A stretch of 64,000 nt of DNA from Nitrososphaerota archaeon (lineage in GTDB: Archaea; Thermoproteota; Nitrososphaeria; Nitrososphaerales; Nitrosopumilaceae), in assembly GCA_028866895.1 (NCBI GenBank), contig JAGWHF010000006.1, forward strand, positions 1-64,000, read 5' to 3'. Made by a program: the position numbers and the translations under genes. The number at the start of each line of letters is the position of its first letter. The first letter of the stretch is position 1. Positions 32,446 to 35,888 of the stretch are shown here, piece by piece. The notes under the pieces were generated by a model. That model saw nothing but the letters and a program-made list of their open reading frames with translations, made no database searches and was not told the origin of the DNA.

Positions 32446-33084
32446 ATGACAACATTTGCTAAGAACTGGCAAAGACCTCAGACCCCAAGCCTGGGAGAGA
32501 GGCTCAATGACGCAATAAAGCCCAAAGGCCCACTGAAGCCAAGGATGGAACAGGCAGTAAAGAGGCTGCAACTCCAAATTGGAAAGCTTGACGGGATGAT
32601 CTCAAAGCTGAAGCAGCGTGATGAGAAATTATTCAAGAGAATCGTTGCCGCAACCCAGCAACATGACCTTACCGCTAGTCGCGTTTTATCAAAGGAATTG
32701 GCCGAAGTCAGAAAGGTTACAAAACTTCTCGGTAATGCAAGGATCGCACTCGAACAGATAGAGCTAAGGCTCAGCACCTTCCATGACCTGGGAGACACCG
32801 TGGTCACAATCATGCCTACGATAGGCCTGATGAAGAGCCTCCGGTCGTCGCTCGTCCAGTTCATGCCTGAAGCGGACCGCGAGCTGTCCGGAATGACGGA
32901 AATGCTCAGCGGGCTGATGACAGACACGTTCCACGGCGGAGACTTTGGAATAGACTCCGGAGTGGCCGACGAGGAATCCGAGAAGATCATGCAGGAGGCT
33001 GCGGCAGTGGCGGAGGCGGCGGTAAACGACAAGCTGCCGTCCATGCCTGCCGGAAGCGAGGCCTCGTCTGCACGGTACGTCTAG
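32446..33084 (+). CDS. CdvB-like (ESCRT-III / Snf7) protein
   Basis: A 212-aa all-helical protein with a basic N-terminal half (KPKGPLKPRMEQAVKRLQLQ, DGMISKLKQRDEKLFKRIVA) and an acidic C-terminal half (MTEMLSGLMTDTFHGGD, ADEESEKIMQEAAAVAEAAV), the charge layout of ESCRT-III. In thaumarchaea Cdv proteins form division filaments, with CdvA as membrane recruiter and CdvC (Vps4) as ATPase. The gene is alone here; no CdvA or CdvC lies next to it. No winged helix or MIM-like Pro-rich ending is evident, suggesting one of the short CdvB paralogues. Confidence 0.82.
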   Translation: MTTFAKNWQRPQTPSLGERLNDAIKPKGPLKPRMEQAVKRLQLQIGKLDGMISKLKQRDEKLFKRIVAATQQHDLTASRVLSKELAEVRKVTKLLGNARIALEQIELRLSTFHDLGDTVVTIMPTIGLMKSLRSSLVQFMPEADRELSGMTEMLSGLMTDTFHGGDFGIDSGVADEESEKIMQEAAAVAEAAVNDKLPSMPAGSEASSARYV

Positions 33085-34364
33085 GCGGCCCTGTGGGACA
33101 GCCTGTAGCGGAAGTAGAGCCCGAACAGCGCCACCGATACGGAAAGGACCGAGGCGGACAGCAAGAACATGGCCTGGTAGCCAAAAGCCTTTGTCAGCTC
33201 GCCTGTCACAAGCGCCCCTGTAAAGACCCCGATGCCAGTGACCGCGCTGTTGACGCCAAGATATTTTCCCTCAAAACCCTGCGGTATGCTCTTGAAGAAT
33301 ATGACCGAGCTTGACGTGCTGAAGATGGAAAAGCCGATGACGAGCAGGCATGAGGAGGCTACTGCCAGCTCGGCGCCGAGGCTTCCAAACAAGAATGGTG
33401 CTGCAGCTGCCGGAATCAGCACTGCAAGGATCCTCGGGGCAAAGGAAGCAAGCGTAGCCCTGTCCTCGCCGAGCCTGGAGATTATCCTTGGTGCTGCAAA
33501 ATAGATGAGAAGCATGGCTGTCATCTGGACCATGTAGTTGAGGAATACGCCCGAGTTGGAAAACCGGTGCGTTATGAGAAACGGGCTCCAGGCAGTCGAG
33601 TACATGTTGCTTCCGAGGTTGAAGAAGAATATCGCCATGTAGAAAATGCCAATCTCGTTGCTGACCCTTCCCCTGAAAATCGCCATTATGTGCTTGAAAT
33701 CATGCAGTTCTGGAATCCTGGGGAAGACAAAGTGGTGGTGGCCAATTGCGTAACGCAGCCCGTGGATCGAGTGGGCGATGCCGCTTCTTTCAATGTGGGC
33801 CTTTCCCTCCCCGACCGTCAGGCTCAGCGCCATTGCAGTCCCGCTTGAGACGGCGCAGATGAGGAAGTATGGTTTGAGGTCAAGGTACAGGCTGTCGACA
33901 AAGCCGATTGCCATGGCGGCCAGCATTCCAAGCGTGCTTATCACCGACGTCCTTGCAAAAAGCCAGCTCCACAAGTTCTTCTGGATGGATTCCATGACAA
34001 GTAGCTGGGTCACCGGGTTTCTGCCCACGATGAAGAATCCTATTATCGGTACTATGGCATAAAGTGCGGCAATGGAGTTTGTAAAGTACATTCCGAGGCT
34101 GCAAATCAGGACGGCAAGAAACGAGATGAGAAGTATCGGCCTCTTGGCGTGCAGCCTGTCTATTACCCTGCCCCAGAAGAGGGACCCCGTCGCAACTGCT
34201 GCGTTCTGGATGGATACTAGTATCGCGACCTCGCCTATGCCGCCGCCGAGGGCTATCACGTAGAGGGGGATTACTATGTTGAGCCCTTGGTTTGTTATCT
34301 GGCCCGGGAGTATGTACAACATCCATCGTTGGGACTGGGCTGGCCGCACCCTTGGGGTCAGCAT
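33081..34364 (-). CDS. Major facilitator superfamily transporter
   Basis: About 427 aa with 12 predicted membrane helices. The MFS loop signature after helix 2 is FWGRVIDRLHAKRPILLIS (G-x3-D-R-x-x-R-R type). Central cytoplasmic loop is long and His-rich (GLRYAIGHHHFVFPRIPELH). Substrate cannot be predicted. The frame is open to 34439, but ATG 34364 (MLTPRVRPAQSQRW) gives the better N-terminus; TGTAAAAATTTCG (about 34392-34403) could be its TATA box. The candidate structured RNA at 34430-34620 lies on the same strand just upstream. The 3' end overlaps the CdvB-like gene by 4 nt. Confidence 0.85.
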   Translation of the reverse strand: MLTPRVRPAQSQRWMLYILPGQITNQGLNIVIPLYVIALGGGIGEVAILVSIQNAAVATGSLFWGRVIDRLHAKRPILLISFLAVLICSLGMYFTNSIAALYAIVPIIGFFIVGRNPVTQLLVMESIQKNLWSWLFARTSVISTLGMLAAMAIGFVDSLYLDLKPYFLICAVSSGTAMALSLTVGEGKAHIERSGIAHSIHGLRYAIGHHHFVFPRIPELHDFKHIMAIFRGRVSNEIGIFYMAIFFFNLGSNMYSTAWSPFLITHRFSNSGVFLNYMVQMTAMLLIYFAAPRIISRLGEDRATLASFAPRILAVLIPAAAAPFLFGSLGAELAVASSCLLVIGFSIFSTSSSVIFFKSIPQGFEGKYLGVNSAVTGIGVFTGALVTGELTKAFGYQAMFLLSASVLSVSVALFGLYFRYRLSHRAA

Positions 34365-34429
34365 GAACTCGTTATTGTACGATGAATTCGAAATTTTTAC
34401 AGGGATTTGTCTAATTTGTGGAGACCGGA

Positions 34430-34620
34430 AAAAATTCAATCATGCAGGCGTGTGCGAGGCACACGCCGCGTGAGAATGCAGGGCATTCAAAGACGGGACG
34501 ACCTTTGTCATCGTTTCCGCGGGATTTCTCCCGTGGGTCTTCTACGCAGGGGGTTTTGGCCCGGGCGTATCACGCGCTTGCTGCATGATCCCTGTCGTGG
34601 GAGGATTCCTTTGACAGGGA
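34430..34620 (-). ncRNA. Candidate highly structured RNA, about 190 nt
   Basis: On the minus strand CCTTAAATAAT (34641-34649 region) would start transcription near 34620. Helices (plus coordinates): P0 34589-34596/34613-34620; P1 34439-34447/34581-34589 (9 bp); P2 34467-34473/34570-34576 (7 bp); hairpin 34448-34466 (8 bp, loop CTC) exactly filling the gap between P1 and P2; hairpin 34474-34488 (6 bp) abutting P2; P3 34543-34547/34565-34569; P4 34490-34494/34537-34541, enclosing 34497-34512 and 34518-34535 (GAAA loop). A T6 run follows P1 (34430-34436). Either an independent RNA or a leader of the MFS gene. Not recognised as 5S, SRP, RNase P or a known riboswitch. Confidence 0.6.
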
Positions 34621-34640
34621 CAATTAATACGTGAACAAAT

Positions 34641-34649
34641 TATTTAAGG
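34641..34649 (-). promoter_or_regulatory. TATA box of the candidate structured RNA
   Basis: Minus-strand CCTTAAATA, close to the archaeal consensus and to the boxes before leaderless genes in this window (for example CTTAAATAC before 1125). It sits 25-28 nt before the start of helix P0 at 34620. Confidence 0.55.
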
Positions 34650-34770: not shown

Positions 34771-35109
34771 GTGACAAAAGATCCTGACGTATACCAGTTA
34801 ATTTACGAGTCCAACCTTGACAGCAAGCTCGAGCAGATACTGATTGGGCTGATGAAGGACAACCCGTCCCACAAGACCGAGATGTCAATCCAAAAGTTCC
34901 TGCTCTATGTGCAGCAATCAACCGAGAACTTTTGGACCACCTACTACAGGGCCAAGACGTACCAGGAAAAACTGGACTGCTACTACCAGTTCTCAAAAAA
35001 CCAGTGTCTGGCAACCGAACTGCTGATGCGCGACCTCAACTCCCTCTCCTCTGAGGAGGAGATAAGGGACAATCTGGGCAGTATGCTAAAAGAGGGCTTT
35101 ACCTTCTAG
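34771..35109 (+). CDS. Hypothetical 112-aa helical protein
   Basis: GTG 34771 start with CTTTTATCATATG about 20-30 nt upstream as TATA. The protein is soluble and almost fully helical (VYQLIYESNLDSKLEQILIG, SIQKFLLYVQQSTENFWTTY, YQEKLDCYYQFSKNQCLATE, SLSSEEEIRDNLGSMLKEGF). No motif recognised. It converges with the coiled-coil gene by a 4-nt overlap. Confidence 0.7.
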   Translation: MTKDPDVYQLIYESNLDSKLEQILIGLMKDNPSHKTEMSIQKFLLYVQQSTENFWTTYYRAKTYQEKLDCYYQFSKNQCLATELLMRDLNSLSSEEEIRDNLGSMLKEGFTF

Positions 35110-35732
35110 GTGAAGGAAGGCTCGGATTTCGGCCTAGAGTCCCTGAATTTCTCTATCCTGCTTCCTTCCTCGTTTACCACCCTGTCGATTCCGAGGATCT
35201 TCTCGCGTAGGTTGTTGACTATGGTGGCCACGTCGTCTGCCTCCCTCTCCACCTCGCTCCGTTTTTGCTGAAGTGCCTTTATTCCCTGCCTCTCCTCGTC
35301 GATGTACTGGCCGACCTTGACAAGTTTCTCCTTGAGGTTCTTGATGTCGACAGACTCGTCCTCGATGCTTTTCTCGAGGTTGGTCCTCTTGTCCTTCAGG
35401 TTCTTTATCATGAGGCCGACATAGTCAATTGCATCCTCAAGCTTGGTGCGCTTGTCCATGAGTGACCGTATGCCAATGTCTTCCATGCTTCCAGCCGTCC
35501 TCTGCTGCATGGGCTCGGGTATTTTTACCTGCTCAGGCCTTGGATGTTCCACAACTCTCGGCGGTTCAGGCCTTGGCTGTTCCACAACTCTCGGCGGTTC
35601 AGGCCTTGGCTGTTCCACGACTTCAGTCTTTGGAGGCTCGGGGGCCTGGTAGGCAGTCGAAAAATCCTCCTCCTCTTTTTTAGCGGAATCCGGTTTAAAT
35701 TCGTCCTTTTTCTTTCTGAACTTTTCAAACAT
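35106..35732 (-). CDS. Coiled-coil protein with Pro-rich tandem repeats
   Basis: The frame extends upstream, but ATG 35732 (MFEKFRKKKDEFKPDSAKKE) is preceded by CTTTTTATATTTACG about 25-30 nt before, so it starts there (208 aa). Order: basic N-terminus, acidic linker, three 11-residue repeats of the type VVEQPRPEPPR, then a coiled coil of about 120 residues (LMDKRTKLEDAIDYVGLMIK, NLKDKRTNLEKSIEDESVDI, LREKILGIDRVVNEEGSRIE). It resembles cytoskeletal or Cdv-associated coiled-coil proteins in general shape only; it lacks the PRC-barrel of CdvA. Proximity to the CdvB-like gene (2.6 kb) is suggestive, no more. Confidence 0.75.
   Translation of the reverse strand: MFEKFRKKKDEFKPDSAKKEEEDFSTAYQAPEPPKTEVVEQPRPEPPRVVEQPRPEPPRVVEHPRPEQVKIPEPMQQRTAGSMEDIGIRSLMDKRTKLEDAIDYVGLMIKNLKDKRTNLEKSIEDESVDIKNLKEKLVKVGQYIDEERQGIKALQQKRSEVEREADDVATIVNNLREKILGIDRVVNEEGSRIEKFRDSRPKSEPSFT
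35529..35620 (-). repeat. 33-nt tandem repeat inside the coiled-coil gene
   Basis: Near-identical 33-nt units encode VVEQPRPEPPR twice and the variant VVEHPRPEQVK. The units are almost identical at DNA level, so they arose by recent duplication and may vary in number between strains. Confidence 0.8.
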
Positions 35733-35888
35733 TTTGCTTAAGACTACTGTAATGCGTAAATATAAAAAGTTAATACAGCAGGCGGTAAAGCCTGGGGCGA
35801 TCGGAAAAACGCCCCTTTTTGGGCCATGTTGGCCGCGCAAATGCCCCAAACCAAGATATATTTAGAATCGGCTCGCTCTTCCCGTTGG

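Follow-up and report, generated by a model that had tools for sequence, protein, structure and literature searches.

The locus and its genes

The window analysed here is a 64,000-nucleotide stretch from one of the 95 contigs of a 2.26 Mb archaeal genome (G000). Nitrososphaera had been guessed as the source in an earlier sequence-only reading of this DNA; the genus is Nitrosotalea, of the family Nitrosopumilaceae. The genes and elements around the segment under study are as follows.

32446-33084, plus strand: ESCRT-III-like CdvB-type protein (Snf7, below the Pfam cut-off), adjoining the MFS gene and well conserved among relatives
33081-34364, minus strand: MFS transporter gene, with its start probably at ATG 34364 and not at TTG 34439; the alignment to relatives begins at about residue 27
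34385-34399, minus strand: conserved promoter-like element downstream of the RNA, separate and assigned to the MFS gene; AAATTATTCAAAT-type in relatives
34429-34623, minus strand: structured RNA of 195 nt (model positions 1-194), its true 5' end probably at about 34620-34623 and its 3' end probably in a U-run
34771-35109, plus strand: small protein, p112
35106-35849, minus strand: coiled-coil protein with tandem proline-rich PPRVVEQPRPE repeats

Past the U-run that ends the RNA, most of the related loci carry another conserved promoter-like element just ahead of the MFS start. Four loci (L002, L003, L005 and L011) have kept the RNA together with its signals and have lost the MFS gene. In these Nitrosotalea genomes the MFS gene is cleanly gone from its place between the RNA and the gene of the Snf7/CdvB-like protein, and L011 retains the MFS promoter-like element.

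On the other side, p112 was found beside the RNA and divergent from it in the loci examined from Nitrosotalea and from genera g6, g8 and g21. The protein matches no Pfam or NCBIfam family, and its C-terminal end carries an invariant TF, mostly as FTF. The AlphaFold2 model is all-helical (pLDDT 84) and gave no match to PDB folds at E<=0.001. Remote homologs were found in g17, g22, g2 and g14, all genera without the RNA, those in g17 and g22 being about 40% identical. When p112 was considered as a protein partner of the RNA, its distribution was uninformative: remote homologs occur in genera lacking the RNA, and the divergent RNA homolog L105 has no p112 nearby. A hairpin resembling P0, the 5' hairpin of the RNA, was seen in genus g22 (L081, 1402-1475, and L082, 1923-1850), where ACUCUAUCC-GYGGUUCCUCC-UGGGAUAGAG lies ~70-100 bases ahead of the p112 homolog on the same strand; at 11-12 bits, this may be a chance match.

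Fold and transcription signals of the RNA

The RNA was drawn on the minus strand with nine helices or hairpins (P0-P8), given here with the flanking signals from the promoter side to the 3' end.

34637-34647, minus strand: TATA box TTAAATAATTT, a motif shared with the tRNA-Pro promoter, kept in 40 of 40 close homologs; TTAAATATTTT in a subclade and TTAAATAACTT in L105
34624-34632, minus strand: ACGTATTAA element between the TATA box and the RNA start (initiation region), with small variations; CGTA is present in nearly all homologs and absent in L105
34591-34618, minus strand: P0, 5' hairpin with a conserved asymmetric internal loop (UCAAAGGA ... UCCUCCCAAGA)
34581-34589, minus strand: P1 5' strand AUCAUGCAG, closing helix of 9 bp, nearly invariant in sequence
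34570-34576, minus strand: P2 5' strand, 7 of 7 pairs changed on both sides
34543-34569, minus strand: P3 hairpin, two stacked helices, 8 of 9 pairs changed on both sides
34539-34542, minus strand: P4 5' strand, AAG core
34517-34536, minus strand: P5 hairpin, variable, with a GAAA loop in part of the genus; its distal part, with 65% of cells paired, ranks as the weakest helix
34496-34513, minus strand: P6 hairpin, invariant tip GAC-AAWG-GUC
34489-34492, minus strand: P4 3' strand, CUU core
34474-34488, minus strand: P7 hairpin, 6 of 6 pairs changed on both sides
34467-34473, minus strand: P2 3' strand, partner of 34570-34576
34448-34466, minus strand: P8 hairpin
34439-34447, minus strand: P1 3' strand CUGCAUGAU
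34429-34434, minus strand: U6 run, putative transcription termination site, with a T-run in all homologs including L105

The 5' hairpin P0 is followed by a domain closed by P1, which holds P2 and P8; P2 encloses P3, P4 and P7, and P4 in turn encloses P5 and P6, giving three nested multibranch junctions within the P1-closed domain. A multi-helix fold with eight helices had been proposed in the sequence-only reading, and the fold was recovered with nine. The helix edges described there as abutting were reproduced, with the P1 3' strand ending at 34447, P8 filling 34448-34466, P2 starting at 34467 and P7 at 34474, P3 ending at 34569 and the P2 5' strand starting at 34570.

The minimum free energy of the minus strand (34430-34625) was -88.0 kcal/mol, as compared to -55.0 ± 4.8 for dinucleotide shuffles (z = -6.88, with 0 of 200 shuffles as good). 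The plus strand of the same stretch gave z = -6.84. Because these values are nearly equal, folding alone does not pick the strand, as the first reading had also held. Folds of five divergent homologs had z-scores of -3.6 to -6.0, and that of L105 was -5.1.

The TATA box, the ACGTATTAA element and the U-run hold their positions in the 40 close homologs, and the TATA box and U-run do so in L105 as well. Both of these are conserved only in the minus orientation. The 11-mer TTWAATAATTT has two exact matches in the 64 kb, here and before tRNA-Pro, versus 0.02 expected. The TATA box had been placed at 34641-34649, slightly off from its position at 34637-34647, and the T6 run that had been noticed lies at 34429-34434. 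The strand had been made to rest mostly on the promoter and U-run, and it is these conserved signals that fix the minus strand. In the minus-strand reading, GU cells exceeded AC cells by 104:85 in the structure-blind alignment and by 129:79 in the model-fitted alignment, an excess that weakly favours the same strand.

In the structure-blind MAFFT alignment of 32 sequences, compensatory double changes occurred on 17 tree branches at 14 pairs, versus 3.4 ± 1.8 under the null (0 of 5000), in which columns were re-paired within the same consensus pair type and relatedness was preserved. The model-fitted alignment of 40 sequences had 42 of the 65 pairs changed on both sides, and its covariation score was 0.261 as compared to 0.03-0.07 for slid partners. 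An all-pairs, phylogeny-aware G-test (R-scape-like, with simulated alignments) gave zero individually significant pairs, with a tree dominated by two clades, and for this reason the compensatory-branch count was used instead. The proposed RNA had been staked on covariation and on conservation in relatives; homologs with the structure kept were found, and the covariation appears as compensatory branches above the null, not as significant single pairs. Homologs are between 173 and 225 long, and their lengths include every class modulo 3, evidence that speaks against coding.

Distribution among related archaea

The element is single-copy in G000. BLASTN gave matches in 27 of 101 genomes, with the source genome counted and the weakest matches partial. 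One full-length copy each was found by covariance model R1 in 33 of the 37 genomes of the genus, and the same model detected the RNA in nine genomes of genera g6, g8 and g21 (E = 1e-30 to 1e-36). The wider model R2 added genus g9 (G044, homolog L105) at E = 8.6e-12 over all 194 positions. Nothing convincing was found beyond Nitrosotalea, g6, g8, g21 and g9 in 400 class and 398 phylum genomes, and the final model, run on 40 genomes that were partly new, gave no convincing match beyond the RNA family. The RNA has been inherited vertically in Nitrosotalea and the four related genera.

Four genomes of the genus had no match. In G028 the contig ends inside p112, and G014, G026 and G033 are also without p112. 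Since G014 is a 96%-complete member of the genus, the RNA is not strictly essential. Synteny is fixed except in genus g9, where the RNA (L105) follows an RNA 3'-phosphate cyclase gene and neither the MFS gene nor p112 is nearby.

Marginal matches in G193 and G033 (~84-131 of the model) were rejected as false positives, the aligned letters reading as collagen-like GEKGDKG codons. G484:C1:1746926, G527:C6:106451 and G649:C1:988526, all from another family of the phylum (f47), have in common a weak match to part of the model (51-154, E about 0.001). Further marginal matches outside the five genera were obtained in G280 and G068.

Nature of the RNA and known systems

That the segment is a conserved gene for a structured RNA of ~195 nt in the Nitrosotalea group, with start and stop signals of its own, is well supported by these comparisons and seems to us nearly certain. 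An independent RNA was one of two options offered in the sequence-only reading, and it is the option borne out by the RNA's own conserved TATA box and U-run, the compensatory changes, the single copy per genome, the persistence of the RNA after MFS loss in four genomes and the homolog in an unrelated neighbourhood.

From the signals we infer transcription, in which RNA polymerase would start near 34621 and stop in the U-run. The transcript would fold as drawn and act in trans, its likeliest role being that of a ribonucleoprotein scaffold. P1, the P6 tip (GACAAWGGUC) and the P0 internal loop hardly vary though pairing would permit change, and they are thus the likely contacts of such a scaffold, which makes it the first choice; the conservation pattern suggests this function weakly. 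Taken whole, a free-standing, stable, trans-acting structured RNA that most likely serves as a ribonucleoprotein scaffold is in our judgement a reasonably probable account of the locus. The chances appear about even that it represents a class of RNA not described before and confined to the Nitrosotalea side of the ammonia-oxidising archaea, in which it would serve a housekeeping-type ribonucleoprotein or even be a ribozyme; its marks would be the three nested multibranch junctions and the contact sites in P1, the P6 tip and the P0 loop, which hardly vary.

Second in rank, and rather unlikely, is a stand-alone regulatory sRNA that would base-pair with its targets, ribosome-binding sites for instance, by means of UCCUCCC, the C-rich 3' side of the P0 internal loop and the complement of GGGAGGA. 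The UCAAAGGA/UCCUCCC loop is among the most conserved parts of the RNA in the genus, and CCUCC is the anti-Shine-Dalgarno core. However, local pairing persists in L064 and L105, where AACC and CUUCCC, respectively, stand in place of CCUCC; this indicates that the structure and not that sequence is conserved, and the RNA is mostly helical, as is unusual for a simple antisense RNA.

We consider it improbable that the RNA is a very divergent member of a known family, such as an H/ACA or C/D guide cluster or another housekeeping RNA, lying beyond the Rfam models. It does resemble stable RNAs in its tRNA-type TATA box, single copy and compactness, and part of the RNA family has a box-C-like UGAUGA in P6. 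Against this, Rfam 15 returned no match to the window RNA up to E = 10, so that the hit to a standard RNA that would have counted against the sequence-only reading did not appear. The sole Rfam match for L105, L076 and L015 up to E = 1 was a chance one to MEG8_1, outside the RNA. RNase P RNA (RF00373) and SRP RNA (RF01857) were rejected as candidates, each having one match only in the genome, located elsewhere at G000:C54 (167.5 bits) and G000:C11 (112.1 bits), respectively. Box C/D and H/ACA guide RNAs were also rejected on inspection of the alignment: UGAUGA is not conserved (UGACGA in L002), there is no conserved box D (CUGA) and no conserved ANA box behind a pocketed hairpin, and the topology is one of nested multibranch junctions.

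The other option of the sequence-only reading, that the RNA leads the MFS transporter mRNA as a cis-acting riboswitch or attenuator, is very hard to sustain. The RNA does lie upstream of the MFS gene on the same strand, and adjoins it in those Nitrosotalea, g6, g8 and g21 loci that have the gene. But the U-run ends the RNA and is followed, near the MFS start, by a conserved promoter-like element of that gene's own, the RNA has outlived the gene in the four genomes described above, and no MFS gene is near the L105 homolog. This arrangement indicates that the RNA does not control the MFS gene.

Just as improbable is a DNA-level element (a miniature mobile element, or a recombination or replication site) whose many perfect inverted repeats merely resemble helices and would make both strands fold about equally, given a syntenic single copy per genome, the absence of the exact P0 motif from viral contigs, the conservation of the TATA box and U-run in the minus orientation only and the excess of GU over AC cells. 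Neither the multiple copies nor the variable positions of a mobile or repeat element were found, each genome having one copy in fixed synteny except in g9.

To our knowledge, few structured ncRNAs have been described in ammonia-oxidising archaea besides tRNA, rRNA, RNase P, SRP and guide RNAs, and no paper naming such an RNA was found in the open literature searched. We regard the RNA family as new, within a broad kind, the orphan free-standing structured ncRNA, that is already known. The RNA is strongly conserved, and one of the organisms that have it is a cultured acidophile, Ca. Nitrosotalea devanaterra (G035:C1, 39291-39482, minus strand), which makes its transcript, partners and role accessible to experiment. 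The genome paper of that organism lists seven small RNA genes, left unnamed in the relevant passage, and the present RNA may be one of them (PMC4836417).

Riboswitches and attenuator leaders are like the Nitrosotalea RNA in having a compact multibranch fold that ends in a U-run, but this RNA differs from them in being independent of the gene downstream. Archaeal RNase P RNA (RF00373) is likewise a single-copy, multi-helix stable RNA, and archaeal SRP RNA (RF01857) is also stable, single-copy and of roughly comparable size; each has a separate gene in the genome, and the Nitrosotalea RNA has no Rfam match. The marine group II Euryarchaeota (Thalassoarchaea) have Tan1, an abundant ncRNA of 229 nt, 5th in RNA-Seq rank (PMC5069720). 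It resembles the Nitrosotalea RNA in size and in being structured and apparently free-standing, and neither of these archaeal ncRNAs has a known family or function. The two, compared by description, are set apart by their archaeal lineage and by the kind of evidence, with expression measured for Tan1 and sequence comparison used for the Nitrosotalea RNA.
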